Notes under the pieces: model-generated
What the model was told of the DNA's origin: nothing
Database searches by the model: none
What the model saw: only the letters and a program-made list of their open reading frames with translations
Shown here: positions 34,576 through 57,142 of the stretch, in pieces
Numbering within the stretch: the first letter of the stretch is position 1
Layout: every line of letters begins with the position of its first letter
Translations under genes and position numbers: made by a program
DNA from: Dokdonella fugitiva
Lineage (GTDB): Bacteria; Pseudomonadota; Gammaproteobacteria; Xanthomonadales; Rhodanobacteraceae
Assembly: GCF_014138265.1 (NCBI RefSeq)
Contig: NZ_JACGXL010000001.1
Span: 1,208,171-1,272,170 of the forward strand
Direction: 5' to 3'
DNA: 64,000 nucleotides

Positions 34576-34705
34576 GTGGGCATTCCCGGTGGGCGCGGTG
34601 CGCCGGTCGGGGATGTTCACGGAGTGGCGCGCAGGCGCGGGCCACGTTCTCCGCGCTCGCGGGATGCATCGCCCGGCGCACCTGAAACCGCCGGATCCAT
34701 GCCGA

Positions 34706-40545: not shown

Positions 40546-40554
40546 TGCTATAAG
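40546..40554 (+). promoter_or_regulatory. Extended -10 box directly before the ECF sigma gene
   Basis: TGCTATAAG is an extended -10 element. A start site 7 bases after its end would be the A of the sigma factor ATG at 40561, and there is no ribosome binding site before the ATG. This suggests a leaderless transcript. Confidence 0.5.
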
Positions 40555-40560
40555 CCGCCC

Positions 40561-41127
40561 ATGCTCGCCGAGGAGACCACCGCCTTCCTGCTCGACCGCG
40601 CCCGCGGCGGCGACGACGCCGCGCGCGACCGGCTCGCGGCGCGCTACCTGCCGATGCTGCGGCGCTGGGCGCACGGTCGCCTGCCGCCGTCCACGCGCGA
40701 CCTCACCGATACCGACGATCTTGTTCAGGTCACCCTCTTTCGCGTGTTGAAGCAGATCGGGACGTTCGAGTACGGCGGCGCCGGCAGCTTCCTGGCCTAC
40801 CTGCGCAGCACCCTGCTCAACCTGCTGCGCAACGAGATCCGTCGCGTCGCGCGGCGTGGCCAGAGCCTCGAGTTGGACGAGGCGCTGGTCGAGGACGAAA
40901 CGGCGTCGCCGCTCGAACAGGCGATCGGGCGCGAACGCCTGGAACGCTACGAGGCCGCGCTCGAGGCCTTGCCCGCGCGAGCGCGCGAGCTGGTCATCAT
41001 GCGGCTGGAGTTCGACATGACGTACGAGGACATCGCGAACGAGGTGCAGTCCACGCCGGACGCCGTGCGCATGGCGATCAAGCGCGCGGTGGAAGCGCTC
41101 GCGCGTTCGCTCGGCAACGGCGCATGA
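40561..41127 (+). CDS. ECF-type RNA polymerase sigma factor
   Basis: A 188-residue sigma-70 family protein. Region 2 spans about residues 25-95 with [21 protein letters not shown], and region 4 about 128-183 with [20 protein letters not shown] and [20 protein letters not shown]. The usual acidic DAED of region 2.2 reads Asp50-Thr51-Asp52-Asp53. No anti-sigma factor is next to it; instead the gene overlaps a Ser/Thr kinase by 4 bases (ATGA), as in ECF groups controlled by phosphorylation. No spaced ribosome binding site is seen. Confidence 0.9.
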
Positions 41128-42701
41128 GCGTGCCCGGCCACGGCCCCGACCTGGTCGACCGCTTCGTCGACGGCGAGCCGATCGACTGGAGCCGCGCGAC
41201 CGCGAACGACGACGCCCTGCTCGACGCGCTGTACACGCTCGACCAGGTGCGCGCGGCCTACCAGCGCATCGGCGGCACGCCCGACCCGCGCGGCCCGCGG
41301 CTGTTCCCGTGGGGACCGCTCGTGGTGCAGGAGAAGATCGGCAGCGGCGCGAGCGCCGAGGTGTTCCGCGCCTGGGACGCCGGCCTCGCGACGCCGGTTG
41401 CATTGAAGCTGCTGCGCCCGGAAGCGGCCGCGGCCGGCCTGCGCAGCGAGGACTTCCTGCACGAAGGACGCCTGCTCGCGCGCATCAGCCAGCGCAACGT
41501 GCTGCGCGTATACGGCGCCGCCGTGCACGACGGCCGCCCCGGCATCTGGGCGGAATGGATCGAAGGCCGCACGCTCGACGCGATCGTCGAGGGCGACGGC
41601 GCGTTCGCCGACCGCGAGGCCGCGCACGTCGGCCTCGAACTGTGCGCCGCACTCGCGGCGATCCACGCGGCCGGCCTCGTGCACGGCGACGTCAAGGCGA
41701 GCAACGTGCTGCGCGCACGCGGCGGGCGCATCGTGCTCGCCGACCTCGGCGCGGCCGGCACGCCGGACGTGCTCAACGCGTCGCTGCGCACGCAGGCGAC
41801 GCCCGCGTACCTGTCGCCGCAGTCGCGCGACGGCGCGCCGCGCGCGGCGGCCGACGACCTCTATGCGCTCGGCGTGCTGCTGCATTTCCTGCTCACCGGC
41901 ACGTATCCACGGGACGGCCGCTGCGACCTGCGGCGTCCGGGCATCGATGCGGGCGTCGCGGGCGCGATCGAACACGCGCTGTCGCCGAAACCGCAACGGC
42001 GCCCCGCGAGTGCGCACGCGTTCGCGACGGCGTTGCGCGCGGCGATCGGTGGCGATGCGTCCGCACGCGAGGCACCGGTGCGTCGGTGCCGCACGACACT
42101 GATCGTCGCGGCGACCGCGCTCGCGCTCGGCCTGGCGGCTTTCGCCGCGTGGACGTCGCGCCTGCCCGCGTGGCAGCCGCAGGCGCAGCTCGTGCACCGC
42201 ACCGCGGACGGGCGCGAGGCGCTGCGTGATGGCGCGGACCTGCGCGTCGGCGACCGCCTCGAACTCACGCTCGCGAGTGACCGCCCGACCTGGGCCTACG
42301 TGCTCAACGAGGACGCGGCAGGCTCGATGCACGTGTTGTTCCCGCTCGCCGGGCTGCGGCGCGCGAATCCGCTGCCGCAGGGCGAGGGCGTGCTGCCGGG
42401 CGATCAGGACGGCCGCGCGCTGTCGTGGCAGGTGTCGAGCGAAGGCGGTCGCGAGGAGTTCGTCGTCGTGCTCGCCGACGCGCCGCTGGCGCGCCTCGAG
42501 GAGCGCCTCGCCGCGCTCGACGCGGCGGCGATCGACGCACCGCAACGCGGTGTCGCACGCATCAGCGGCGAACCGCTCGCGAACGTGAGCGTGCAGGGCC
42601 GGCAGCTCGCCGCGCTGCTGTCCGCAGCGTCCGCCGAACTCGCCGATGCGCGCCACGTGCGCGTGCTGGCCTACCACTTCGAGACGCGCGCTTCGCGCTG
42701 A
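41124..42701 (+). CDS. Membrane-anchored Ser/Thr protein kinase with DUF4384-like domain
   Basis: A 525-residue Hanks-type kinase. The catalytic domain lies at about 65-310: glycine loop [10 protein letters not shown] (72-81), Lys95 in VALKLL, catalytic HGDVKASN at 187-194 (HGD replaces HRD, a non-RD kinase) and DLG at 207-209 in place of DFG. One membrane helix spans about 324-344, then a C-terminal domain with [20 protein letters not shown] and HVLFPLAG, like DUF4384, probably in the periplasm. It is coupled to the sigma factor gene and likely acts on it; that link is inferred. Confidence 0.88.
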
Positions 42702-42760
42702 GCTGTTCGGATCGGTGTCGCGCGGTGTTCCGTTGGAGGAACTTCGCGGGAGCACCGGTC

Positions 42761-45481
42761 ATGGCACGCACGCTCGCAACCCTCCTGCTCCTGCTGCTGC
42801 CGCTCTCGGCAACGGCCGCGACCTGCACGTGGAACACGCCGTCGGGCAACTGGAGCGTCGCGTCCAACTGGAGCGGCTGCGCCGACAGCGCGGGCCCGTC
42901 GACGCGCGCGCCGGGCAGCGGCGACATCGCGGTGCTCGCCAACGGCACGGCCGACCTCGACGTCTCGCCGACCGTCGCCGAGTTCGAACTCGGCAACAAC
43001 GGGCTGTTGTCGGTGGTCGGCGGTACCAAGACGTTCGACGTCACCTCCAAGCTGCGCTTCGCCGGTGGCCATGCGACGACGGTCCTCGGCACCAACCAGT
43101 TGCTGCTCCACCTGCACGCGGATGCGAGCGGTTCGCTGCTCGCGCCGACCACGCTCGAGAACGCGGTGTTCTTCGAGAATTCCGGCACGCTGACCTTGGG
43201 CTCGACGAGCGGCGTCGCGCTGACGCTGCTGGTCGCGAGCGAAGTGCGCAACATGCCGGGCGCGACGATCACGATCGCGGGCGGCAATTCACGCCTGTAC
43301 CTCGATGGCAGCAGCCAGCTCGTGAACAACGCGGGCGCCACGCTCACGATCGGCGGCAACACGACGCTCGGCCGCGCGACGCCGGCGTTCAACGGCGCGA
43401 TCGTGCAGAACCTCGGCACGATGGTCGTCAACGGTCCGGGCACGCTGGACATGCCGCTCGGCGGCAACTTCTCGGCGCTGCAGCAGTACGGCGACCTGGC
43501 CGTGCACAACGCGACGATCGTCTGCAGCCAGACGGCGACCGACAAATGCTCGTTCCGCGACGCGAACGGCCAGCCTGCGCCGGCGATCACGCGGCTCGAC
43601 AACGCAGTGCTCGATCTCGGTGGCGCCGCGGTCACGTATTCGCTCGGCGACGTCTCCACATTGGCCGGCACGGGCACCGTGCAGGGGTCGATCATCGCGC
43701 GTGGAAGGATCGCGCCGGGCGCGCTCGCCGGCGCGCCGTACGGCACGCTGGTCGTGAGCGGTGGCGTGACCGTGCAGGAAACGGGCATCCTCGACTTCGA
43801 TCTCGGCGGCAGCGCGAGCGGCAGCTACGATCGCATCCAGGCCGGCGGTGCGGTGAGCGCGGGCTTCCCGACCCTTTACGACGGCCAGGGCCGTCTCGTG
43901 ATTCGCCTCGCCGGGGGCTATGCACCCGCGCTCGGTGCGGTCGTGCCGGTGATGACGTACGCCAGCGTGGCCGCAGGCGCGAGCTTCTATCGCGTCGATG
44001 CGAACTACGTGCTCGATTACGCCGCGCGCTTCGCGCCGACCGCGCTGGAGGTGTTTCCGGCGCCGCGCATCACGATCGGCGACGCAAGCGTCGTCGAAGG
44101 CGCGACGGGCACGACGCCGATGGGGTTCGCCATCCGCCTGTCGCAGGCGACCACGCAGGCCGTCACGGTCGAGGTGCGCAACCGCGACGGTACGGCGGTG
44201 ACCGGCGTGTCGCCGTCGGGCGACTACCTGTTCCCCGCCGACTACGTGTTCACGTTCGCGCCGGGCGAAGTGCTCAAGACCCAGGTCTATCCGGTCAACG
44301 GCGACGGCGTGGTCGAAGGCGACGAATCGTTCGCGGTGGACGTGTACCGCAACAAGGTGGCCAACGCGGCGATCGGCAACGGCATTCCCGGCAGCCCGAC
44401 CGCGACCGGCACCATCCTCAGCGACGAACTCGCGCCGGGCACGCGCTTCGTGCTCGTCGGCAAGGACAACGGAACCAGCGGCCGGAAGATCCGCCGCTAC
44501 ACGACGAGCGGCACCTACATCGACGACTGGGACGACCGCATGACGAACGCGTTCGGCCACATCGTCACCGGCATGTGCTTCGCACCGAACGGCGACGTGC
44601 TCGCGACGCGCTTCGCCTGGCCCGGGCCGGTGCTGTACAGCCGCTTCGGCGCCGTGCTCGACGAAGACTTCACGCGCCATCCGCTCGGCAACGCGACGTA
44701 CGCCAACCACGAATCGTGCGTGTTCGACCGGCTCGGCAACGTCTACATCGGCCAGGCCGGCGCATCGAGTTCGCCGGACGACCAGGTACCGGTGCTGAAG
44801 TTCGATCGCTATGGCACGCGGCTCGATACCTTCGTGCTGCCCACCGGCCCGCGCGGCACCGACTGGGTCGACCTCGCCGGCGACCAGTGCACGCTCTACT
44901 ACACCTCGGAAGACACCGACGTGCGCCGCTACAACACCTGCACGCACAGCGTCCTGCCGCCGTTCGCGAGCGGCCTCACGCCGCCGTACTGCTATGCGTT
45001 GCGCATCCGGCCGAACCGCGAGGTGATGGTCGCCTGCCAGGAAGCCGTGCATCGCCTGAGCGCGCAGGGCGTGAACCTGCAGACCTACACGCGCACGAGC
45101 ATCGGCGAGACCGATCCCACCGGCCTGTTCGCGATGAACCTCGACCCGGACGGCACCTCGTTCTGGACCGCCGGCGCGAGCAGCGGCAACGTCTATCACG
45201 TCGACATCAGCAGCGGCGCGGTGATCGCCAGCTTCAACAGCGGGCAAGGCGGCGTCGCCGGCCTCGCCGTCTACGACGAACTGCACGACGACGTGATCTT
45301 CAGCGACGGCTTCGATCCGCCACCGACGCTGCTGCCGATCGTCGCGAAGCGCGAGCCGCTGCCGGAGGTCGATTGCGAAGGCGAGCTGCGCTTCTGGCCC
45401 GAGGTGCGCGACATGCCGCCGTTCGTCCCGGCATGGATGTCGCTGGTGGTCGTGCGCGGCGAGGCCGGCTGCGAGGACTGA
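42761..45481 (+). CDS. Large secreted beta-rich protein with Calx-beta domain and IFSDGFD motif
   Basis: A 906-residue exported protein. Signal peptide MARTLATLLLLLLPLSATA; residues 20-430 are Gly/Thr/Asn-rich repeats like autotransporter or G8-type beta solenoids. A Calx-beta domain spans about 430-545 (ITIGDASVVEGATG, DGVVEGDESFAVDVYRNK), and a beta-propeller of the SMP-30/NHL kind follows. The motif DDVIFSDGFD lies at residues 843-852 and is followed by a further 54 residues with two Cys. GGGAG eight bases before ATG 42761 serves as ribosome binding site. It directly follows the sigma/kinase pair. Confidence 0.75.
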   Translation: MARTLATLLLLLLPLSATAATCTWNTPSGNWSVASNWSGCADSAGPSTRAPGSGDIAVLANGTADLDVSPTVAEFELGNNGLLSVVGGTKTFDVTSKLRFAGGHATTVLGTNQLLLHLHADASGSLLAPTTLENAVFFENSGTLTLGSTSGVALTLLVASEVRNMPGATITIAGGNSRLYLDGSSQLVNNAGATLTIGGNTTLGRATPAFNGAIVQNLGTMVVNGPGTLDMPLGGNFSALQQYGDLAVHNATIVCSQTATDKCSFRDANGQPAPAITRLDNAVLDLGGAAVTYSLGDVSTLAGTGTVQGSIIARGRIAPGALAGAPYGTLVVSGGVTVQETGILDFDLGGSASGSYDRIQAGGAVSAGFPTLYDGQGRLVIRLAGGYAPALGAVVPVMTYASVAAGASFYRVDANYVLDYAARFAPTALEVFPAPRITIGDASVVEGATGTTPMGFAIRLSQATTQAVTVEVRNRDGTAVTGVSPSGDYLFPADYVFTFAPGEVLKTQVYPVNGDGVVEGDESFAVDVYRNKVANAAIGNGIPGSPTATGTILSDELAPGTRFVLVGKDNGTSGRKIRRYTTSGTYIDDWDDRMTNAFGHIVTGMCFAPNGDVLATRFAWPGPVLYSRFGAVLDEDFTRHPLGNATYANHESCVFDRLGNVYIGQAGASSSPDDQVPVLKFDRYGTRLDTFVLPTGPRGTDWVDLAGDQCTLYYTSEDTDVRRYNTCTHSVLPPFASGLTPPYCYALRIRPNREVMVACQEAVHRLSAQGVNLQTYTRTSIGETDPTGLFAMNLDPDGTSFWTAGASSGNVYHVDISSGAVIASFNSGQGGVAGLAVYDELHDDVIFSDGFDPPPTLLPIVAKREPLPEVDCEGELRFWPEVRDMPPFVPAWMSLVVVRGEAGCED

Positions 45482-45551
45482 GCGGCGCGACCTTGTTCGG
45501 AACGATGCGGCGAGGTGTTCTTGAAGGAAACGCAATGCCGAGGCCGCGACG

Positions 45552-48020
45552 ATGTCCATCCGCCTGCGCAAGCTCCTCTGGTCGGTCCTGCTGCTCGTCG
45601 CCTGCGTGCACCGACCGGCCTTCGCCACCGAGGAGCGCTGCGTCAACACGAGCGGCGAGCTGCTCGGCGCAATCCTGCTCGCGGTCGACGACGACGTCGT
45701 GATCCGCGTCGTGCAGGGGACCTATCACCTCGACGTCAATCCGCTCGACCTGATCGAGGATCCGTCGTTCGGCTACACGATCACGATCATCGGCGGCTAC
45801 AACAGCGCGTGCACCTCGCGCAGCCTCGATCCGCACCTCACCACGATCACCGGCGACGCGGACATCATCCAGCTGCAGACCTACGATTCGCTCAACATCG
45901 ATTCGATCCGCTTCGCGCACATCGCCGGCGGGCTCTGGCTCGAAGCCGTGTCGTACGGCGGCAGCGGACCGGACGAACAGGTCACGCTGCGGCGCGTGAT
46001 CTTCGACGACCTGTGCACGAGCGGAAGCTGCAACGGGGTGAACAACGGCGGCTCCGCCGTCGGAATCAACAGCGACGACGTCTCGATGTCGCACGTGCTC
46101 GCCGTGCACAACGCGCATTCCAACTGCGCGCTGTACGTGGACAACCACGATCTCAACGACGTCTACCTGTCGTACTCGATCGTCGCCGACAATGCCGGCG
46201 ACGGCCTGTGCATCACGGACGTCCAGTTCGCCGACGACGACTACCGCCTGCACGCCGAGAACAACATCTTCCGCGACAACGCCGGCGGCCAGGACATCCG
46301 CACGCGCGCATCGCCGTACATCGCCCTGCGCAACAACATCTACCACGTGCTCGACGCGTCGCCCGCGCCGAACACCGCGCCGAGCGGCACGCTCGACCAG
46401 GACCCGGACTTCACTGCACCGGCGAGCTCCGACTACCACCTGCAGGTGTCCTCTCCCGCCATCAACAGCGGCACCCTGCTCGTGTCGAACCCGCTCTCGC
46501 AGGATCTCGACGGCGGCCCGCGCGTGGTCGGCTCGGCGCCGGACCGTGGCGCCTACGAGACCAATGTCGACGACACCAACACGCTCACCGTGACCACCAC
46601 GGCGGACCAGCTCGTGCCGCTGATCACCGGCTCGCTGCGCTGGGCGATCACGCAGGCGAACGCGGATTCCGGGCTCAACTACATCCACTTCGACATCCCG
46701 GGCGCCTGCCCGCGCATCATCAACCTGGTCGCGCCGCTGCCGACGATCACCGACCGCGTCATCATCGAGGGCTACACCCAGCCCGGCAGCGCGCCGAACA
46801 CGAATGCGATCGGCTTCAACGCGACGATCTGCGTCGGCATCCGCGGCGATCTCTCCGACGACTACGCGTTCCGCATCCCGTCGAGCGTCGGCATATCGCA
46901 CTACCTGCAGTTGAGCGGCGTCGGCATCGGCGGTTTCGACATCGCCGCGGTCGACCTCCAGGGCGGCGCCGGCTCGTGGATCCACGGCGTGCAGTTCGGC
47001 GGCAGCCTCGGCAACACCGCGCTCGGCAACAGCGCGGTCAACGTGCGCCTCGCCGGCAACACGACCTACTACAACGTGATCGGTGGCGAGGAGGACGGCG
47101 ATCGCAACATCATCCCGTACGCCTGGGTCGCCGGCGTGCTGCTGCTGGCGACGCATCCGAACGGCAGCACCGTGCAGAACAACTACATCGGCACGAATGC
47201 GAACGGACTCGCCGCCGCGCCGAACCAGGTCGGCATCCAGGTCACCGGCAGCCACCACACGATCCGCGACAACCTCGTCTCGGGCAACCAGACCTTCGGC
47301 ATCGAACTCGCCGGCACCTCCGCGCTCGACAACTTCATCGCCGCGAACCGCATCGGCCTCACGTCCTTCTACCTCTGCCTGCCGATCTGCACCGGCGCCG
47401 ACCTGCCGAACATCTCGCACGGCATCTACGCCCACGGCGGTGCCGGCGACAACACGATCAACGCGAACAAGATCGCCTGGAACGGTGGCACCGGCGTGCG
47501 CCTCGTCGACGGCCTGCGCAACTCGATGCTGTCCAACGCGATCCACGACAACGAAGGCCTCGGCATCGACCTCGACGCGGCCGGCGTCGATGCGGTCGAC
47601 AACGATGCGGCGGCCGGCGCCGGCACGCGCGCGAACCGCGGGCTCAACTACCCTGCACTGTCGCTCGCACAGGGCGGCGCGCACCGCGGCAACCTGCGCA
47701 CGCTGTTCGCGTCGACCAACGGCACCTACATCCTGCAGGCGTTCTCGAGCGCCGCCTGCGACGCGTCGGGCTACGGCGAGGGCACGAGCTACGTCGCGTC
47801 CGCGCTCGCGACGATCGACAACGCGAACAGCGGCGGCAACGGCAGCGTCATCGTCGACATCCCGCTCGCGGGCAACCTCGTCGGCCACGAATTCACCCTC
47901 GTCGCGCGCGATGCGCAGGGCAACACCTCCGAGTTCTCCCACTGCGCGCCCTACCTGTGCGACCAGATCTTCGGCTACGGCCTGGACGGGGCGACCGCCG
48001 ACACCTGCCCGGCGGAATGA
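45552..48020 (+). CDS. Secreted parallel beta-helix protein, diverged tail
   Basis: An 822-residue exported protein with signal peptide MSIRLRKLLWSVLLLVACVH. The first half is a beta-helix closing with a choice-of-anchor Q-like block (SPAINSG ... DRGAYE near 300-340). The second half begins with GSLRWAITQANADSG, then GYTQPGSAPNT and repeats with IGTNANG and NRIGL. The protein ends CDQIFGYGLDGATADTCPAE, a diverged form of the GFD tail with cysteines added. Paralogous to the genes at 51305 and 53779. GAGG lies 8 bases before ATG 45552. Confidence 0.78.
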   Translation: MSIRLRKLLWSVLLLVACVHRPAFATEERCVNTSGELLGAILLAVDDDVVIRVVQGTYHLDVNPLDLIEDPSFGYTITIIGGYNSACTSRSLDPHLTTITGDADIIQLQTYDSLNIDSIRFAHIAGGLWLEAVSYGGSGPDEQVTLRRVIFDDLCTSGSCNGVNNGGSAVGINSDDVSMSHVLAVHNAHSNCALYVDNHDLNDVYLSYSIVADNAGDGLCITDVQFADDDYRLHAENNIFRDNAGGQDIRTRASPYIALRNNIYHVLDASPAPNTAPSGTLDQDPDFTAPASSDYHLQVSSPAINSGTLLVSNPLSQDLDGGPRVVGSAPDRGAYETNVDDTNTLTVTTTADQLVPLITGSLRWAITQANADSGLNYIHFDIPGACPRIINLVAPLPTITDRVIIEGYTQPGSAPNTNAIGFNATICVGIRGDLSDDYAFRIPSSVGISHYLQLSGVGIGGFDIAAVDLQGGAGSWIHGVQFGGSLGNTALGNSAVNVRLAGNTTYYNVIGGEEDGDRNIIPYAWVAGVLLLATHPNGSTVQNNYIGTNANGLAAAPNQVGIQVTGSHHTIRDNLVSGNQTFGIELAGTSALDNFIAANRIGLTSFYLCLPICTGADLPNISHGIYAHGGAGDNTINANKIAWNGGTGVRLVDGLRNSMLSNAIHDNEGLGIDLDAAGVDAVDNDAAAGAGTRANRGLNYPALSLAQGGAHRGNLRTLFASTNGTYILQAFSSAACDASGYGEGTSYVASALATIDNANSGGNGSVIVDIPLAGNLVGHEFTLVARDAQGNTSEFSHCAPYLCDQIFGYGLDGATADTCPAE

Positions 48021-48095
48021 GGCGCCGACTCCGGACGAAGCACGCAAACACCCGATCCACGCGGCAGGCACTAGAATCGGGCCCAAGAGGGGCCT

Positions 48096-51000
48096 ATGAA
48101 GGTGCGAGGGATGCCGGCAACCATGGTGTTCGCGGCACTGGCCGCGATGTGGTCCACGGCCGCCGCGGCGACCGCAATCGATCGCGTCGCCGCGGCGCTC
48201 TCGCGCGGCGCCTGCACGCAGGCGGCGACGGAGGCGGAGCGCGCGCAGGCATCGGCGCACGATGATGCTGCGCTCGCCGCCGTGCTTGCATTGCGCACGC
48301 GCGTGGCACTCGACTGCCTGCGACCGCAGGCGCCCGGCCTCGACGACTGGCTCGCGCGCGAACGCGAGCTGCGCACACGTGCCGACGGAGCCGACTCGCC
48401 GGCCGTGGCCGAGGTCGAACTGCAGCGCCTGCGCCGCGAGCAGCAACTCGACCACCTCGACGACGCGTTCGCCAGCGCGAACGCCCTCGACCGGCGCGCG
48501 GCGACGTCGGGATGGCCTCCGGCATTGCGAGCACGCATCGCCGTGCGCATCGCTTCGATCTCGAACCAGCGCGCCGATCCGACGACGGCACTGGAAGCGG
48601 CCGATCGTGCCGGCCGTCTCGCGGCGGAGGCCGGTGACGAGGCGACGCGGGTGGCGGCACTCGAGGATCGCGGCTTCGCACTCGCGCGCATGCGTCGCGG
48701 CGACGCCGCGAGCACGCTCGCCGAAGCGGTGCCGCTGGCCGCGAAGCACTTCGGCGCGAACAGTCGGGAATACGCCGAAGCGCTGCGCCTGCACGGCCAG
48801 GGTGCGCGCATGATCGGCGATTTCGGCACCGCGATCGAGCGCTTCGAGCAATCGCTGGCGATCCTGCGCGCACAGCCCGAACCGGACCGACGCGCGATCG
48901 CCAACACGCTGCTGAACCTCGGCCAGGCGCGCAAGCTGTCCGGCGACGGCAACGGCGCGGCCGCGGCCTACGAAGCCGCACTCGCCGCCGAAGCGAAAGA
49001 CCCGGACCTGCAGCGGCCCACGCGCGCCGCCACGTTGCATGCGCTGGCCAACCTCGAACGCGATCGGGGCCATCCGCAACGCGCGGTGGAACTGTACGCA
49101 CAGGCGGAGCCGGCCTTCGAACGGAAGTTCGGCGCGGATTCGGTGCTGCTCGCGCAGGTGTACAACAACCACGGCAACGCCGAGGCGAACCTCGGCCGCT
49201 ACGACGCCGCCAATGCGCTCTACCAGCGGGCGGTCGACATCGCGCGCAAGCGCGGCAGCGTCGATCCGGGCGACTACCTGCCGCTCGCGAACCTCGCGAT
49301 GGTGCAGACCTGGCAGGGCCGCTACGCCGAAGCCGAGAAAGGTTTTCGCGAAGCGCTCGCGCACCAGAAGACCTCCAGCGTCGGTAGCGAAACGAGCACG
49401 TTGTTCGCCTACATGGGGCTCGCCGCCAGCCTGTGGGGCCAGCGCCGTTTCGACGACGCGATGGAAGCCGCGGTCGCGGCCGAGCAGGTGCGCGAGGCCG
49501 CGCTGCGCCTCGCCGCGAGCCACCTCGGCGAGAAGCAGTCGGTCGACCTGCAGGAATACCTGCGACCGAGCCTCGATCTCGTCGTCGCGATCGCCGCGGC
49601 AAGCGGGAGTCCCGCGCACCTCGAACGCGCGTGGCAGTCGAGCATGAGCGCGCGCGACGCGGTGACGTCCATCCAGGTGCAGCGGCTCGCCGCTGCGCGC
49701 AAAGCCGGCGACGCGCGTACGACGACGTTGTGGCACGACTGGCGCGAGGCGAGCGCCGCGGCCGCACGCGCCGAACTCGGCCACGGCGACGCCGCCGAGG
49801 CGCGCGCCGAACTCGAACGCGCCGAACGCGCGCTCGCGATGGCCACGCCGCTGGCTGCATCGCTCGGTGCGCGCGCGCCGACGTTCGCGGACGTGCGCCA
49901 TGCGCTGCCCGGCGGCGAATCACTGGTGCTGTTCACCCAGACGCGCCTGCGCGGCGCATCGGATTTCGCGAAGGACGCGGTCGAACAGCGCTCGCCGGAT
50001 CTTTACGCTTTCCTGCTGCCGACGCGCGACGGCGACGTGCGTGCACGCAAGCTCGGCACCCTCGAGCGGATCGCCGCCGCCGTCGACGCCTGGGATGCCG
50101 CCTTGGCCGATCGCGACGTCGCGCTCGCGACCGTCATCGAACGCGGTCGCGCCGTGCGCAAGGCGATCTGGCAGCCGTTGCACGATGCCGGCGCCGGCGA
50201 CCACTGGCTCGTATTGCCGACCGCCGCACTGTACCGCGCGCCTTGGGGAGCGCTTCCCGACGACGATCGCTGGCTCACCGAGCGCGGCTTTCGTGCACAC
50301 GTGCTCAACCACGAGCGCGAATTGCTCGCGGAAGCCGCGCCGACGGCGCCGCCGCGCCTGCTCGCGATCGTCGACCCCATGCTCGCCTCGACGGCGCTGC
50401 CGGAGGCGGCCCGACGTTGTGCCAGTGGCCTTTCCGCGCTGCCGGGGGCGCGCAGCGAAGGCGTCGAGCTCGACGCGATGTGGCGTGCGCACTTCGGCTC
50501 CGCCGCACGCTCGACCCTCCTCGTCGGTGGCGATGCGACCGAAGCGAGGATGCGCAGCGCGATCGCGACCGCGGACATCGCGCATTTCGGCACGCACGGC
50601 GTGGGCCTCGCCGGCGACTGCGCCGCTGCGACCGACGCGCTGGCACTGCGCGGCGCGTCGCTGTCGTTCGACGCGCCCCTCAAAGCGGACACGCCCGCAC
50701 TCGCGCCGGTCGCGCTCCTGCTGGCTCCAGGTGTCGCATCGGACAGCGACGACGACGGCTTGCTCAGTGCCGAGGAGATCGCCGCGCTCGACCTCTCGCA
50801 CATGCGCTGGGCCGTGCTCGCCGCCTGCTCGACCGCGAGCGGCGCGACGCGACGCTACGAGGGTCCGTTCGGCCTCGCCCGCGCCTTCCGCCTCGCCGGC
50901 GCGCGCACCGTGCTCACGAGCCTGTGGTCGGTCGACGACGCCGCCACGGCGGAATGGTCGCGCACGCTCTACCTCGCCCGCATCGAGCGCGGCCTCGGTA

Positions 51001-51116
51001 CCGCGGACGCACTCGCCGATGCGCAGCGGAGCCTGATCGCCGCGCGACGCGCACGCGGGGATTCGACCCACCCGTACTACTGGGCCGCCTTCACGGCTAC
51101 CGGCGACTGGCGCTGA
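48096..51116 (+). CDS. Exported TPR-CHAT protease
   Basis: A 1006-residue protein. A signal-like hydrophobic segment (VFAALAAMWSTAAAATA) lies at residues 11-27; TPR repeats fill about 150-500 (for example TLHALANLERDRGHPQRAVE, YNNHGNAEANLGRYDAANAL); the CHAT domain spans about 690-1006. The catalytic pair is His834 in HFGTHG and Cys911 in LAACSTASG, so it should be an active clan CD cysteine peptidase like separase and caspase relatives. If exported, its site of action is unusual for CHAT proteins. TAGAAT at 48072-48077 is a possible -10 box. GAGG is 5 bases before ATG 48096. Confidence 0.88.
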   Translation: MKVRGMPATMVFAALAAMWSTAAAATAIDRVAAALSRGACTQAATEAERAQASAHDDAALAAVLALRTRVALDCLRPQAPGLDDWLARERELRTRADGADSPAVAEVELQRLRREQQLDHLDDAFASANALDRRAATSGWPPALRARIAVRIASISNQRADPTTALEAADRAGRLAAEAGDEATRVAALEDRGFALARMRRGDAASTLAEAVPLAAKHFGANSREYAEALRLHGQGARMIGDFGTAIERFEQSLAILRAQPEPDRRAIANTLLNLGQARKLSGDGNGAAAAYEAALAAEAKDPDLQRPTRAATLHALANLERDRGHPQRAVELYAQAEPAFERKFGADSVLLAQVYNNHGNAEANLGRYDAANALYQRAVDIARKRGSVDPGDYLPLANLAMVQTWQGRYAEAEKGFREALAHQKTSSVGSETSTLFAYMGLAASLWGQRRFDDAMEAAVAAEQVREAALRLAASHLGEKQSVDLQEYLRPSLDLVVAIAAASGSPAHLERAWQSSMSARDAVTSIQVQRLAAARKAGDARTTTLWHDWREASAAAARAELGHGDAAEARAELERAERALAMATPLAASLGARAPTFADVRHALPGGESLVLFTQTRLRGASDFAKDAVEQRSPDLYAFLLPTRDGDVRARKLGTLERIAAAVDAWDAALADRDVALATVIERGRAVRKAIWQPLHDAGAGDHWLVLPTAALYRAPWGALPDDDRWLTERGFRAHVLNHERELLAEAAPTAPPRLLAIVDPMLASTALPEAARRCASGLSALPGARSEGVELDAMWRAHFGSAARSTLLVGGDATEARMRSAIATADIAHFGTHGVGLAGDCAAATDALALRGASLSFDAPLKADTPALAPVALLLAPGVASDSDDDGLLSAEEIAALDLSHMRWAVLAACSTASGATRRYEGPFGLARAFRLAGARTVLTSLWSVDDAATAEWSRTLYLARIERGLGTADALADAQRSLIAARRARGDSTHPYYWAAFTATGDWR

Positions 51117-51304
51117 CGCACCCGGCGGGTCTCGCCGCTGCGCGGCGCGGCCTGCCCTACGCTGTCTGCGTCGCTGGCGGCGGCTGGCGCCGAGGCGCCG
51201 GCCGGCGATCGCGCATCCGGCATCCCTGCGGCAGCACCTCGCCGGCGATGTTCGCTTCCTCCTTCCCCGGTGTTCCACATCGGCAACACGGAAGGAGAAG
51301 CACC

Positions 51305-53725
51305 ATGTTCCGCAGATGGCCGTTCGCCGCCGCAATCCTGATCCTGTCGCCTGGCGCGCGGGCCGTCGACTTCTGCGCGCAGACCGACGCCGAGTTCGCG
51401 ACGGCGCTGACTTTCCAGGAATTCGCCGCGGGGCCGAACACGATCCGGTTGGGTGCGGGAAAAACGTTCCATCTCGCCCATACGGCGTTCGACGACCAGA
51501 GCCCGCCCTACAACGCACGCCGGCTCACGCTCGCCGGCGGCTACGACGCCACCTGCAGCGCGCAGGTCACGCGCGACGCCGCCGCCACCGTGCTCGACGG
51601 CACCGGCGCAGGTGACGGCCTGAACTGGCTGCCGGTCGACGGCGGTGACCAGATGACGCTCAGCACGCTCACGATCACGCATCTGGGCAAGCCGATGGAG
51701 ATCGTCATCGGCGGGGACGGCGCGCGGCTGCTCCTGCAGCGGGTGCGCGTCGTCGACAGCGCCTCCGTTTCGCTCGAAGCCGGGGTCGGAAGCGGCTCTT
51801 CCATCATGGTCCGCGACAGCGTATTCGCGCGAATGAACGGCGACATCTACGACGCGGCGCTGGCGATCGGCGGCCTCGGTGACGACGGCACGCGCATCGA
51901 CCTCGTCAACACCACGGTGACCGCGAGCGCGCGCAACGGCGTCGACGTCTACAACCCGCACGGCACGACCTGGCTCTACAACGACGTCCTGTACGGCAAC
52001 AACGGCGGCTTCGTCGACCTCAAGCAGAATGAAGGCGTCTGGGCCTTCGACAACGCGATCGGTTCGCACGACGGCGCGTTCCTCGCCGGATCGTCCGGAA
52101 ACCTCGCGTCGAATCCGCTGTTCGTGTCGTCGACCGACTACAACCTGCAGTTCGCCTCGCCCGCGCGCGACAGCGGCACGTCGGCGGTGCCTGGCGGCCT
52201 TGCGGCCTACGACATCGAGGGCGGTGCGCGCGTCGTCGGCGCGACCGTCGATCGCGGAGCGTACGAGAACGATTCCTCGGGCGCGACAATCCTGCTGGTG
52301 ACCAACACCAACGACAGCGGCAGCGGTTCGCTGCGCCAGGTACTGCTCGACGCCAATACGAATCCCGTCTCGAACATCATCGGTTTCAACATTCCCGGAT
52401 CGTGCCCGCGCACGATCGCGGTGAATACCGACCTTCCGGCGATCACCGACGGCGTGTCGATCCGCGGCTACACCCAGCCCGGCTCGGCCGCGAACAGCAG
52501 CAGCCTGATCGACAACGCGACGATCTGCGTCGAACTGGTCGAGGCGAACGGCAATACCGTCGCCAACGGCCTGCACTTCACTCCGGCGGCCGACGACGAT
52601 GCGTTCGACGTGTCGGGCCTCGCCATCGGCGGCTTCAACACCGGCATCTACGTCGATCACGGCAGCGTCGGCACCGGCGTCGCCTACGCGATCCACGGCA
52701 ACTTCATCGGGCTCGCCGCGGACGGCGTCACGCTGCGCGCGAACGGCTTTGCCGGCGTGGACGTGCGAGGCCGCGTCTACGGGACCATCGGCGGTAACGA
52801 CGATGCGCAGCGCAACGTCATCGCGGGCGGCCTCGCCGGCGTTCGCGTCGCGGCCGAGCAGACCAACTACGTCACCAACAACTTCATCGGCACCACGGCC
52901 GGCGGCGGCACGGCGCGACCGAACGCGGTCGGCGTCGCCCTCCTTTCGGGCCTCAACCAGGTGCTCGACAACGTGATCTCCGGCAATACCGCGAGCGGTG
53001 TGTCGCTCAACGGCGTCGACGCCGCGGCCAACACGATCGCCGGCAACCGCATAGGCCTCAAGGCATTCGTGATCTGCGTGCCGCCGTGCACGCCGGACTA
53101 TGCGCTCGGCAACGGCCAGTACGGCATCTCCGTCACCGGCGGCGCCTACGACGCGGGCATCCACGACAACACGATCGCCTACAACGGCAGTCCCGGCGAC
53201 GGCGCAGGGGTGCGCATCAGCGGGAACGGCACGACACGCGTGCGGGTCGGCGCGAACCGCATCTACGACAACGCGGGCCTGGGCATCGACGTCGGCGGCG
53301 CGGGCGTCAGCTCCAACGACAACGACGCCACCACGCCGGCCGGCACGGCCAACCGCGGCCTCAATTTCCCCACGCTCAACTGGGCACGCGGCGGCGACCG
53401 CAACGGCTCGATCCACGGCTACCTGCAGAGCACCAACGACACGTACCAGATCCAGGTGTTCGCCAGCGACACGGCGGACAATTCCGGCTATGGCGAGGGC
53501 CGCTACTACCTCGGCAGCGGCCAGGTGACGATCACCAATGCCACCGCGAGCAACAACGGTGCAGTGGAATTCGACCTGCCGATCGCGTGGAGCAGCAGCC
53601 TGGTCGGCAAGTACATCACGACGGTCGCGATCGATCACGAGGGCAACACGTCGGAGTTCAGTGGCGTCGGGGTTTACACGTTGCAGGACGTGATCTTCGC
53701 AGACGGCTTCGATACGCCGGAATGA
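51305..53725 (+). CDS. Secreted parallel beta-helix protein with IFADGFD tail
   Basis: An 806-residue exported protein with signal peptide MFRRWPFAAAILILSPGARA. The N-terminal half is a beta-helix ending in a choice-of-anchor Q-like block (SPARDSG ... DRGAYEND). The second half has GSGSLRQVLLDANTN, SIRGYTQPGSAANS, IGLAADG, NRIGLKAFVICVPPCTPDY and GNTSEFSGVGVY, then ends QDVIFADGFDTPE. It is a full-length paralogue of 45552. A strong AAGGAG ribosome binding site lies 9 bases before ATG 51305. Confidence 0.82.
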   Translation: MFRRWPFAAAILILSPGARAVDFCAQTDAEFATALTFQEFAAGPNTIRLGAGKTFHLAHTAFDDQSPPYNARRLTLAGGYDATCSAQVTRDAAATVLDGTGAGDGLNWLPVDGGDQMTLSTLTITHLGKPMEIVIGGDGARLLLQRVRVVDSASVSLEAGVGSGSSIMVRDSVFARMNGDIYDAALAIGGLGDDGTRIDLVNTTVTASARNGVDVYNPHGTTWLYNDVLYGNNGGFVDLKQNEGVWAFDNAIGSHDGAFLAGSSGNLASNPLFVSSTDYNLQFASPARDSGTSAVPGGLAAYDIEGGARVVGATVDRGAYENDSSGATILLVTNTNDSGSGSLRQVLLDANTNPVSNIIGFNIPGSCPRTIAVNTDLPAITDGVSIRGYTQPGSAANSSSLIDNATICVELVEANGNTVANGLHFTPAADDDAFDVSGLAIGGFNTGIYVDHGSVGTGVAYAIHGNFIGLAADGVTLRANGFAGVDVRGRVYGTIGGNDDAQRNVIAGGLAGVRVAAEQTNYVTNNFIGTTAGGGTARPNAVGVALLSGLNQVLDNVISGNTASGVSLNGVDAAANTIAGNRIGLKAFVICVPPCTPDYALGNGQYGISVTGGAYDAGIHDNTIAYNGSPGDGAGVRISGNGTTRVRVGANRIYDNAGLGIDVGGAGVSSNDNDATTPAGTANRGLNFPTLNWARGGDRNGSIHGYLQSTNDTYQIQVFASDTADNSGYGEGRYYLGSGQVTITNATASNNGAVEFDLPIAWSSSLVGKYITTVAIDHEGNTSEFSGVGVYTLQDVIFADGFDTPE

Positions 53726-53778
53726 AGCAGCACGTCGCCCCCCGCTCCGCGAATTCCCTGCAGCCCGATGGAGGCGCC

Positions 53779-55341
53779 ATGTCCGCAGACACATACGGCC
53801 GCGACGCGGCGGTCCTCGCCGCGCCGGTGCGATGCGCCGCGCGCGTCCTGCTCGCGATCCTGCTGGGCGCCGGCGCCGCGAAATCCGCACGGGCCGCCGA
53901 CACGATCGTGATCGTCACCAGCACGGGCGATCTCGGCGGCTCGTGCCCGGGCGCGAGCTGCACGCTGCGCGCGGCGATCAACTACGCCAATGCGAGCCCG
54001 GCCCTCGACCAGATCATCGGCTTCAACATCCCGGGGACCTGCCCGCAGACGATCAAGGTCTTCAGTGCCTTGCCGACCATCGCAGACTCGCTGTCGATCC
54101 GTGGCTACACCCAGCCCGGCGCAGCGCCGAACACGCTCGAGGCAGGCGACGACGCGACCCTGTGCATCCAGCTCCAGCCTGCGTCGAGCGGTTCCAATAT
54201 CAACAGCGGCCTGCGCTTCGCACCCGGCGACGTCGCGGATACTTTCTCCGTGTCGGGGTTGTCGATCGGTGGTTTCGACGACGCCGTCCGCATCGAGGGC
54301 GGCAACTACGTCGTCACTGGCAATTTCCTAGGCGTCGACGCCGATGGGGCCACCGTACACGCGAACGGATACAACGGCATCGACGTCGTGGCGAGCAACG
54401 CCTATTTCGCGACGACGCGCGTCGTCGGTGGGAGCACGGCGGCCGACCGCAACCTGATTTCCGGCAACGGCACCGGCGTCATGCTCGTCAGCGGCGGCGG
54501 CAACGTGGTGCGTAACAATTTCATCGGCACCACGCGCAGCGGCAACACGGCGCTGGGCAACATCAACGGCATCTACGCGAGCAGCCTCGCCAATGACATC
54601 CGCGACAACGTCGTCTCCGGCAACGGCAGCACGGCGATCCGGCTGGAAGGCGCCAACGGCGCCGCCAATTCGGTCGGCGGCAACCGCATCGGCATCAAGG
54701 CGCTGGCGTTCTGCGTGCCGCAACCGTGCATGCCGGACGACGCGCTCGCCAACGGCGGCGACGGCGTGCGGATCGCCAACGGCGCCGCCGGCAACAACAT
54801 CTCCGGCAATGCGATTGCATGGAACGATGGCGACGGCATCGCGTTGCCGAACGCGGGCCCGCAAAACGCGATCAGCGCGAACGCGATGCACGACAACGTC
54901 GGCCTCGGCATCGACCTCGGCGCCGACGGCGTCGACGCCAACGACAACGATGCAGCGGCACCGCCGGGCGCGCCGAACCGCCTCCTCAACTACCCGGTCA
55001 TCGATTCGGTGGGCGGCAGCGATGCGGGCGGCGTCGTGCACGGTGTCTTGCAGAGCACGAATGGCCACTACACGATCGAGTTCTACGCCGATGCGCCGCC
55101 CGATCCCAGCCTGCACGGCGAAGGGCAAATCTGGCTCGGCTTCGGCGAAGTCGACATCGTGAACGCGCCCGCGGGCGCGAACGGCACCATCGCCTTCGCC
55201 TTGCCGATCAGCGGCGACGCCCTCGTCGGCAAGTACGTCAGCGCGATTGCGCGCGATGACAACAGCAGCACATCGGAATTCGGCGAGGGGCGCATGTACG
55301 TGCTGTCGGACGTGATCTTCGCCAACGGCTTCGATCCCTGA
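53779..55341 (+). CDS. Secreted parallel beta-helix (CSLREA-type) protein with IFANGFD tail
   Basis: A 520-residue exported protein corresponding to the second half of its two paralogues. Signal peptide runs to about residue 40 (LLAILLGAGAAKSARA). It begins with GASCTLRAAINYANASP, a CSLREA-like block, then SIRGYTQPGAAPNT, FLGVDADG, NRIGIKALAFCVPQPC, STSEFGEGRMYVL and the tail SDVIFANGFDP. ATG 53779 has GGAGG upstream; ATG 53722 overlapping the preceding stop is an alternative. It lies 53 bases after the previous gene, likely one operon. Confidence 0.82.
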   Translation: MSADTYGRDAAVLAAPVRCAARVLLAILLGAGAAKSARAADTIVIVTSTGDLGGSCPGASCTLRAAINYANASPALDQIIGFNIPGTCPQTIKVFSALPTIADSLSIRGYTQPGAAPNTLEAGDDATLCIQLQPASSGSNINSGLRFAPGDVADTFSVSGLSIGGFDDAVRIEGGNYVVTGNFLGVDADGATVHANGYNGIDVVASNAYFATTRVVGGSTAADRNLISGNGTGVMLVSGGGNVVRNNFIGTTRSGNTALGNINGIYASSLANDIRDNVVSGNGSTAIRLEGANGAANSVGGNRIGIKALAFCVPQPCMPDDALANGGDGVRIANGAAGNNISGNAIAWNDGDGIALPNAGPQNAISANAMHDNVGLGIDLGADGVDANDNDAAAPPGAPNRLLNYPVIDSVGGSDAGGVVHGVLQSTNGHYTIEFYADAPPDPSLHGEGQIWLGFGEVDIVNAPAGANGTIAFALPISGDALVGKYVSAIARDDNSSTSEFGEGRMYVLSDVIFANGFDP

Positions 55342-55496
55342 CGGCGCGTCGACCGAGGGTTCCCGTGCATTGTGGATCGGCACGTTCCGAGTCGATGGCG
55401 GAGCAGGCATCCAGGCATGCATCGGCATGCGGAACCTGTTCGGTGGCCGGACGGAACGGTGTTCATCGGAGGCCAGCATCCCACGAGGAGTACCGC

Positions 55497-55997
55497 ATGT
55501 CATGTCGAGTCACCCACCCGCTGCTCATCGCCGTGTCGGCGTGTTCCGCACTGCTCGTCGGCGCCTGCGCCGCGGGCGGACCGTCGCTGGGGAGCTTCAA
55601 GGTCAACGGCCAGGAGGCCACGCTGCACTACGCCACGCTGGTGGCGATGCCGCCGAGCGGCGAGACGCCGCGCATGATGCTCGTGCTCAGCGAGAAGGCG
55701 CCCGCGGCGGGAACGGATCCGAGCAATGCGACGATCGATGGTTCGCTCGGCGCGGCGCTCGACATGATCCTGCTGAAGTTCGACGGCACGACCTGGTCCA
55801 ACCGGTCCGGTTGCAGCTATTCGCATCCGGCGGCTAAGAAGAAGGGCCACGGCTGGAGCAGCATCGAGACCTGCGGGCTCACCGGCGCCGAGGTCAAGGA
55901 CGGCCAGTTCCATGCGCGCCTCGTCTCGGGCACATCGAACGCGCCGGCCGAGGATGCGGTCGCGCTCGACCTCGACGTGCGCGCGAAGATGCCTTGA
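55497..55997 (+). CDS. Putative lipoprotein of unknown function
   Basis: A 166-residue protein with a signal peptide and lipobox-like LLVGAC near residue 24, so probably a periplasm-facing lipoprotein. The mature part has two or three beta strands and two cysteines (GCSYSHP and IETCGL) that could pair. I do not recognise the family. GAGGAG lies 6-8 bases before the ATG at 55497. It follows the beta-helix genes on the same strand. Confidence 0.6.
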   Translation: MSCRVTHPLLIAVSACSALLVGACAAGGPSLGSFKVNGQEATLHYATLVAMPPSGETPRMMLVLSEKAPAAGTDPSNATIDGSLGAALDMILLKFDGTTWSNRSGCSYSHPAAKKKGHGWSSIETCGLTGAEVKDGQFHARLVSGTSNAPAEDAVALDLDVRAKMP

Positions 55998-56235: not shown

Positions 56236-57029
56236 TCACTCGAAGCCGTCGGCGAAGATCGCGTCGAGCGCATCGCCTTCGATCGCGCCCGGCGTGCAAT
56301 ACGCCGATCCGGGCGCTGCGTCGTCGCCGGGGCGCACGACGCCGCATGCGTCGACCAGTGTCGGATTGCCGCGCGTGTCGATGCATGCGTCCGGCGGAAC
56401 GAGGTCGAGCGCGGGGCTGTCGACGAGCAGGCGATGTCCCTGCATGCCCGGCTCGGCGATGATCGTCATGTTGCCGCCTTACAGCGCGCGGCCGTCGCGC
56501 ACGACGAGGTTCCTGAGCTTGAGGATCGCGTTGGTCGACAGCAGCGTGCCGCCGTTGTTGCAGCCGTTCGCGGTCACGTCGCCGCCGAGCAGCGTGAGGT
56601 TCTAGATCGTGACGTCGTACGGCGTCGCGGCATTGTGCACGTCGAACACGCGGTCGCGCGGCGGCGCGACGATGACCGTCGAGCGCGCGTCGATGCCGTG
56701 CACGACCACGCTGCCGGCGATGTCGAAGTCGCCGGTCTGGTTGGCCGCCTCGTCCCCGTAGGTGCCCTGCGAGCTCATGGTGTACACACCGGGCGGGACG
56801 ACGATCGTGTCGATCGCGCTCGGGATCCCGACGGGCAAGCCTGCTGCGCGGTATTGGTGTTGGCGGCCTGGATCGCGCTGCGCAGGCTGCAGCGGCTGCT
56901 CGAGAAGCCGTCGTTCGAGGTACCGACGGTGATCGTCGCCGCCGGCGCGAGGCCGGCCGCGAGCATCGCGGCGAGACCCCAGGCCCCTGCCCGTGCCGCC
57001 GGGCCGTTCATGCAACGGATACGCGCCAT
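56236..57029 (-). pseudogene. Decayed CSLREA/beta-helix gene with IFADGFE tail
   Basis: ATG 57029 opens a signal peptide and SSSRCSLRSAIQAANTNTAQ, a CSLREA block. Near 56835 the reading frame shifts; the new frame continues PVGIPSAIDTIVVPPGVYTM to about 56605, where an in-frame TAG stops it. Reading on, the frame makes sense (NLTLLGGDVTANGCNNGGTL) until a TAA at about 56480, then continues to the end GDALDAIFADGFE. One frameshift, two nonsense codons and an apparent central deletion show that the gene is dead. It is the only member of this family on the minus strand here. Confidence 0.85.
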
Positions 57030-57142
57030 CGCCTTGCTCCAGAAGCCGGACATGCGGGACCCAACACCGGCAAATGCGGGCGCCGAACACGGGTGCGGTA
57101 CACTAGGCCGCCCCCTCCTCGCGGCGCGGCCGCTTCAAGCGC

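Follow-up and report, generated by a model that had tools for sequence, protein, structure and literature searches.

A sigma factor–kinase unit with an exported TPR-CHAT peptidase and beta-helix neighbours in Dokdonella fugitiva: a candidate kinase-gated pathway

The window described here is a 64,000-nucleotide stretch of Dokdonella fugitiva DNA (contig NZ_JACGXL010000001.1), and it contains a row of same-strand genes headed by an extracytoplasmic function (ECF) sigma factor and a Hanks-type Ser/Thr kinase. The row continues with a Calx-beta-like protein, the beta-helix protein bh1, a TPR-CHAT cysteine peptidase, and the beta-helix proteins bh2 and bh3 (Table 1). An original prediction, made from the letters and reading frames alone, had named these genes, and all of them are present on the plus strand in the order it gave. 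The sigma and kinase genes overlap by 4 bases (ATGA), as described there, and no anti-sigma gene is recognised between or beside them. A small gene for a putative lipoprotein (55497-55997) prolongs the row past the end that had been assigned to it. Gene bounds were taken from reading frames and codon-usage gene calls; for bh3, an alternative ATG at 53722 overlaps the stop of bh2.

Table 1. Genes and candidate promoter sequences of the row (positions refer to the window)
Feature	Position	Strand	Remarks
TGCTATAAG, similar to an extended -10 element of the housekeeping sigma factor	40546..40554	+	read by eye; ends 6 bases before sigma ATG
ECF sigma factor	40561-41127	+	188 aa; reading frame and codon-usage gene call
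Hanks-type Ser/Thr kinase with DUF4384	41124-42701	+	525 aa; membrane helix ~324-342, DUF4384 at 373-452
TGTTCG-N15-GTGTTC, candidate ECF promoter	42704..42730	+	30 bases before Calx-like ATG
Calx-beta-like exported protein	42761-45481	+	906 aa; internal DVIFSDGFD
TGTTCG-N15-GTGTTC	45494..45520	+	31 bases before bh1 ATG
bh1, exported beta-helix protein (choice_anch_Q)	45552-48020	+	822 aa
TPR-CHAT cysteine peptidase	48096-51116	+	1006 aa; signal-like N-terminal segment
TGTTCG-N15-GTGTTC	51249..51275	+	29 bases before bh2 ATG
bh2, exported beta-helix protein	51305-53725	+	806 aa; tail DVIFADGFDTPE
bh3, exported CSLREA/beta-helix protein	53779-55341	+	520 aa; tail DVIFANGFDP
TGTTCG-N16-GTGTTC	55437..55464	+	32 bases before lipoprotein ATG; not used in defining the motif
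Putative lipoprotein	55497-55997	+	166 aa; LLVGAC by eye; no family match

Pfam and NCBIfam searches support most of these names. The sigma factor matches Sigma70_r2 (46 bits), r4_2 (40 bits), and TIGR02937 (86 bits) and has no match in region 3, which is the composition of an ECF sigma factor. The kinase matches Pkinase and DUF4384, and the peptidase matches CHAT (E = 1.7e-43; 149.5 bits at a cut-off of 24) and TPR_12. Among the neighbours, Beta_helix/NosD is found in bh1 and bh3, choice_anch_Q in bh1 and bh2, and CSLREA in bh3. With zero Pfam matches, bh2 owes its beta-helix label to homology with bh1 and bh3, and the protein at 42761-45481 stays below the Pfam cut-off for Calx-beta (24.8 against 27 bits) and is herein only called Calx-like.

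In the kinase, K95, D189, N194, D207, and G209, presumably the catalytic residues, are invariant in 15 kinase sequences. The modelled kinase domain is similar in fold to PknA/PknB (Z of 28-29), and the PknS structure 9eed is also among the structural matches (Z 24.3, root-mean-square deviation 2.6, 236 aligned). The DUF4384 domain lies beyond the membrane helix and, by hydropathy, is presumed to be periplasmic, in agreement with the periplasmic domain that had been predicted for the kinase. Its model has a pLDDT (predicted local distance difference test) of 74-91 over residues 351-460; the PDB matches listed for the model belong to the kinase domain, and a sequence search with DUF4384 gave no significant match. 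DUF4384 is reported to occur in orthocaspases and in kinase-domain proteins (PMC6426788, PMC8283722). The same genome encodes a third DUF4384 protein (L228, G000:C7:159393-161000), a putative lipoprotein whose gene lies in a series of genes for small exported proteins, with a tailed beta-helix gene 2 kb away. In the CHAT peptidase, His834 and Cys911 are invariant in 13 aligned sequences and are taken to be the His-Cys dyad. In a PDB search with the CHAT alignment, the 60 of 154 matches listed are TPR proteins.

The conservation of the unit was followed in 151 genomes of the host order, herein with a limited number of candidates scored per genome, so that all locus numbers are lower bounds. At least 11 of these genomes encode a kinase that aligns with most of the query, and the sigma group has at least 86 matches in at least 39. 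The kinase gene stands directly beside the sigma gene at 14 of 16 loci with a DUF4384 kinase (the window not counted) and at 57 of 62 other loci of the sigma group. The 16 loci include one with a truncated kinase frame (L042), one with the sigma gene cut by a contig end (L046), and one in which no sigma gene was detected (L049); outside DUF4384 loci there are 71 sigma places, of which the 62 were examined, and several of the 62 are short contig ends and five lack a kinase match. A CHAT gene is present at 13 of the 16 DUF4384 loci, 11 times in sigma-kinase-CHAT order on one strand and twice on the opposite strand (L046, L048), and at none of the 62 others (Fisher 2.5e-12, a descriptive value given the relatedness of the genomes). 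L047, a DUF4384 locus in the CHAT-bearing genome G052, has no CHAT gene at the locus. By coordinates, CHAT lies within 10 kb of 13 of the 86 sigma genes, every one at a DUF4384 locus, and 13 of 74 CHAT genes are found this near to a sigma gene, with 0.85 expected. The contrast between the kinase types recurs inside single genomes (G014, G024, G021), and the kinases of the two CHAT-less loci tested with Pfam (L050, L060) have TPR repeats and no DUF4384. Hence, CHAT goes with the DUF4384 kinase and not with the sigma group. The linkage of sigma, kinase, and CHAT genes across the order, which had been suggested as a check, is thus conserved for the sigma-kinase pair and restricted to one kinase type for CHAT.

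The host genome contains a second copy of the unit (L034). The closest named relative found, a Dokdonella metagenome-assembled genome (L054), matches the window at 87% for the sigma factor, 65% for the kinase, 63% for CHAT, 59% for bh2, and 62% for bh3. Its CHAT gene directly follows the kinase gene, and the Calx-like gene and bh1 are missing, meaning that both were either gained in the window or lost in L054. In genomes from outside the order, the succession of sigma, DUF4384 kinase, and CHAT recurs in an Eisenbacteria contig (L062), and in contigs of Gemmatimonadota, Holophagae, Latescibacterota, and Acidobacteria (L055-L058) a sigma-kinase pair is found with no CHAT match in the stretches covered, L056 ending within the kinase. 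A different CHAT protein is encoded next to a ShlB-like transporter gene and a gene for a 1748-residue secreted protein at L226 (G145:C2:993203-1002382; names by eye), in a genome without the studied sigma group.

Exported beta-helix proteins are a recurrent neighbour of the sigma factor, separate from the CHAT linkage. Many CHAT-less sigma loci have an adjoining choice-of-anchor-Q beta-helix protein of ~340-380 residues, often tailed and often convergent with the kinase. The family of these neighbours also includes bh1, the first 320 residues of bh2, and proteins found next to other units; its profile finds 134 places in the 39 sigma-positive genomes. The profile alignment (A3) was built from genes near the sigma factor, and the 14 places matching its members were removed; of the remaining 120, 24 have a sigma gene no more than 10 kb away, where 1.3 would be expected. 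In Dokdonella immobilis (L060), the sigma gene and a TPR kinase gene are accompanied by genes for a relative of almost full length of the Calx-like protein and for three more proteins whose ends resemble the tail, and no CHAT match is found at the locus. A second type of ECF sigma factor (TIGR02999) stands beside genes of the same beta-helix family at L279, L280, and L281 (host genome, C7 and C5) and, judged by eye, at L290 (G150); a kinase follows it at L280 (by Pfam) and L281 (by eye). Upstream of the sigma gene of the window, an exported delta-60 repeat (DUF5122 beta-propeller) protein is encoded on the minus strand (37660-39036), and downstream of the row, at ~56236-57050 on the minus strand, lies what is left of a CSLREA/beta-helix gene, which contains a frame change and is interrupted by stop codons but still ends in DAIFADGFE (by eye).

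The genes for the exported neighbours share a two-block sequence, TGTTCG-N15/16-GTGTTC. It occurs exactly four times in the 64 kb (0.01 expected), each time 29-32 bases before the start of an exported protein, and is absent before the sigma, kinase, and CHAT genes of the window. An ECF regulon would be expected to show such an arrangement. The N16 form also precedes the bh2 orthologue in L054. Eight exact sites with N15 or N16 are found in the host genome: the four of the window, one 34 bases before an unlinked member of the beta-helix family (G000:C1:974370), and three that fall within called genes or on the strand opposite to them. By hand count, three sigma-negative genomes contain none (G090), one (G039), and none (G046), and two sigma-positive relatives contain one (G110) and none (G031), so that the exact form is particular to the host genome and L054; G110 and G031 show a looser form instead (L035, L036, L038, L192). 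In the loci examined, the looser form precedes 8 of 29 beta-helix or Calx genes, 2 of 190 other genes, none of 11 other tailed genes, and none of 51 sigma, kinase, or CHAT genes, for which some CHAT and sigma starts are uncertain and were used as called. In AT-rich genomes, the upstream regions of the family yield TTGTGT-N16/17-GGCATT (13.8 bits against ~9 in three shuffles; 17 sequences including one duplicate pair, L064 and L158). In AT-rich sigma loci totalling 220 kb, its short form, TGTGT-N15/19-GCATT, has 15 occurrences; 12 of them precede beta-helix genes and cover 9 of 15 such genes, and the reversed control has two matches. The counts for the looser and the AT-rich forms are partly circular because the expressions were written after the data had been inspected.

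The linkage of sigma factor and surface genes could also mean nothing more than that surface genes form a rapidly changing island next to regulators, with no regulation between them. Beta-helix genes do stand beside the second ECF type as well, the orientation of the neighbours varies, and the Calx-like gene and bh1 are missing from the close relative L054. However, the two-block element occurs in four exact copies whose spacing to the starts of exported proteins hardly varies, in flanks that are otherwise unlike by eye; this argues against an island of this kind, which is considered distinctly unlikely.

The sigma group would not seem to regulate itself: the two-block element precedes none of 18 sigma genes, and autoregulation was rejected. 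Among 81 sigma upstream regions, nothing rises clearly over shuffles except a few TATACT-like words. TGCTATAA precedes the sigma gene in L035, L038, and L054, as TGCTATAAG does in the window. As a housekeeping promoter of the sigma gene, which would yield a nearly leaderless transcript, TGCTATAAG is only a suggestion, and a scan for consensus promoters found none.

Region 2.2 of the sigma factor carries a signature of its own. In an alignment of 89 sequences (86 distinct, with three duplicates), Thr51 is invariant in 86 of 86, an acid is kept at D/E50 in 83 and at D53 in all 86, and the position after Q56 is acidic in only two. By comparison, 25 of the 27 region-2 proteins found in the host genome have E or D after the Q56 position; its two members of the sigma group have Val there and are alone among the 27 in having Thr51. 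A Thr at position 52, the phospho-position of the group ECF43, occurs in none of the 86. Membership in ECF43 was rejected by the published motif description, as the motif is mostly [DE]-T-x-D and not QTTA-like. Since the loss of an acid goes together with a conserved Thr in a sigma factor with a kinase beside it, and since the features of ECF43 nevertheless differ, the group appears to be ECF43-like in logic and a nonmember by its region 2.2 motif. A search for an ECF43 comparator in related genomes, covering seven kinase loci and one CHAT locus, found no sigma factor of the studied group; judged by eye, the kinases there belong to a different type.

Starting from the gene layout, the conserved linkage, the motif positions, Thr51, and the lost acid, all of which are read directly from the sequences, we infer a phosphorylation and its site, the recognition of a promoter, an action of CHAT on the kinase, and a biological purpose. 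In the first step, a periplasmic signal would switch the kinase, possibly by the TPR-CHAT peptidase binding or cutting its DUF4384 domain. Phosphorylation of the sigma factor by the kinase would follow, with Thr51 of region 2.2 as a plausible site. Finally, the active sigma factor would initiate at TGTTCG-N15/16-GTGTTC, and the Calx-like protein, bh1, bh2-bh3, and the small lipoprotein would be expressed. We give slightly better than an even chance to an ECF pathway gated by the kinase, whose outputs are exported surface proteins (beta-helix proteins and related ones) and in which CHAT most likely sits on the sensing side and does not process the outputs. Its better supported half is the gated pathway with its beta-helix outputs, to which linkage and the promoter element point; the weaker half is the sensing role of CHAT, suggested by the exclusive link to the DUF4384 kinase, the absence of the element before CHAT, and the published occurrences of DUF4384 with caspase folds. 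The specific version, a peptidase-kinase-sigma relay across the inner membrane that chooses the beta-helix proteins coating the cell, with exported CHAT as the periplasmic input that binds or cuts DUF4384 and thereby controls sigma phosphorylation, is tentative and on balance doubtful.

Alternatively, CHAT could be an output or effector under control of the sigma factor, e.g., a defence or stress peptidase, with the beta-helix proteins as further outputs. CHAT proteins elsewhere serve as effectors or defence peptidases. In most relatives, the CHAT gene follows the kinase gene, and in the window it stands among motif-bearing genes, where the promoter of bh1 could read through into it. Yet, the element is found directly before none of the 13 CHAT genes, neither with curated starts nor with starts as called, and CHAT tracks the sensor domain of the kinase rather than the sigma group. 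This alternative is therefore regarded as rather improbable. A housekeeping promoter for CHAT was also considered and rejected; TANNNT is found in 6 of 13 upstream regions with 2.6 expected, an excess too weak to claim.

Several points weigh against the proposed kinase-gated pathway. Because the acids of region 2.2 are retained, phosphorylation of the sigma factor may be unnecessary, and because no plus-strand terminator was found in the gene row, the row promoters might drive CHAT by read-through. What suggests a role of CHAT is its linkage; elsewhere in the class, CHAT is near DUF4384 at just 1 of 13 DUF4384 loci, at none of which the sigma factor of the studied group was found, and L228 of the host genome has no CHAT gene. 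As to the outputs, 96 of the 120 beta-helix family members are not near this sigma factor, and some neighbours lack the element (e.g., L034 gene 1, L037, L040, L041 three times, L191). Three of the four window sites served to derive the motif, the looser expressions followed inspection, the sigma-positive relatives G110 and G031 do not share the exact 12-base form, and, counted over whole genomes, the AT-rich motif is no more frequent where the sigma factor is present than where it is absent.

The original prediction had, as a speculation, assigned another task to the CHAT peptidase, namely the processing of neighbours with a C-terminal tail ending in GFD, in the way that PorU acts on type IX cargo. 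Only part of the tail-bearing row holds: strict terminal tails are found in two of the four proteins, bh2 (DVIFADGFDTPE) and bh3 (DVIFANGFDP), whereas DVIFSDGFD of the Calx-like protein is followed by 54 more residues and the end of bh1 is degenerate (QIFGYGLDGATADTCPAE). The tail itself is real, as its strict DNA form is found 108 times in the 4.77-Mb host genome and a reversed control gave almost no matches; the 64-kb window has five, with 1.4 expected. Two further proteins of the window carry tails (31488-32876, plus strand, DVIFANGFD; 33214-34620, minus strand, GLFADGFE), and the tail, common in the host genome, is therefore not tied to the unit. Across the order, GFD tails are very uneven, with dozens per genome in some families and none in 20 of the 25 sampled genomes of the host's own family.

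The distribution of tails does give processing by CHAT some initial appeal. At least three tails are found in 43 of 71 CHAT-positive but only 25 of 80 CHAT-less genomes, all 11 genomes with a DUF4384 kinase have at least eight, and in the host's family the five of 25 sampled genomes with the unit are exactly those with tails, a coincidence that may reflect shared descent. The sigma factor, however, is the better predictor, with at least three tails in 37 of 39 sigma-positive and 31 of 112 sigma-negative genomes. Moreover, 16 of the 80 CHAT-less genomes have at least eight tails, up to a maximum of 80 (G128 80, G123 58, and G057 55), and three genomes of the host's family (G135, G140, G145) have a CHAT gene and zero tails. 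At the 16 DUF4384/CHAT loci, strict tails number 2 where 2.05 would be expected, and an enrichment peculiar to these loci was rejected; at the 62 CHAT-less sigma loci they are enriched, with 27 seen and 5.8 expected. No match to Peptidase_C25, the family of PorU and the type IX sortase, was found at E 0.01. Because many tail-rich genomes lack CHAT, some genomes with CHAT lack tails, and no local enrichment is seen at the CHAT loci, processing of the tails by CHAT is not supported; it was rejected and is considered very improbable.

No description of a sigma-kinase-CHAT unit was found in the open-access PMC literature, which was covered in part, and within the same coverage its architecture is matched by none of ECF43, ECF54, and type III-E CASP. 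The nearest systems are EcfP-PknT of Vibrio parahaemolyticus and EcfK-PknS of Xanthomonas citri, both of group ECF43, in which an ECF sigma factor likewise stands beside a transmembrane Hanks-type kinase without an anti-sigma factor. The likeness extends to a conserved Thr in region 2.2, the loss of an acidic contact, and the kinase fold, as seen in the match to PknS. According to PMC13147305 and PMC8999054, the ECF43 motif is QTTA with the phospho-Thr third, and the DxxD acids are typically replaced; in the studied group, the Thr is second in a motif that is mostly [DE]-T-x-D, and both DxxD acids are kept. The reported targets of ECF43 are type VI secretion genes and polymyxin resistance, whereas beta-helix proteins are predicted here, and the unit adds DUF4384 as the extracytoplasmic domain and an exported CHAT. 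EcfP-PknT, which the original prediction had taken as its model, thus fits in the conserved placement of the sigma factor beside a linked kinase and applies only by analogy, since the group retains acids that ECF43 lacks. Within the literature as searched in part, activation of an ECF sigma factor by a linked kinase is shown only for members of ECF43, and SigH of Mycobacterium tuberculosis is phosphorylated by PknB with an unclear effect. With part of the acidic surface kept and a different invariant Thr, the sigma group would probe how general charge by phosphorylation is, and the unit supplies a predicted promoter and predicted targets.

The CHAT side has its own relatives. The neighbourhood of ECF54 includes CHAT genes, according to PMC8999054, and likewise has no anti-sigma factor; control by proteolysis is proposed for ECF54, in contrast to the kinase beside the sigma gene here. 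In type III-E CRISPR CASP/Craspase (Csx29, a TPR-CHAT protein; Csx30; CASP-sigma), a TPR-CHAT peptidase is genetically tied to an ECF-like sigma factor (PMC10028731), as in the window. CASP is RNA-guided and acts on the sigma inhibitor Csx30, whereas the CHAT protein described here has a signal-like N terminus and a kinase partner. The DUF4384 orthocaspases, too, join DUF4384 to a caspase-fold peptidase, in one polypeptide there, whereas here DUF4384 is part of the kinase and the peptidase is separate and exported; the sharp correlation between DUF4384 kinase and CHAT makes the role of this exported peptidase directly testable.

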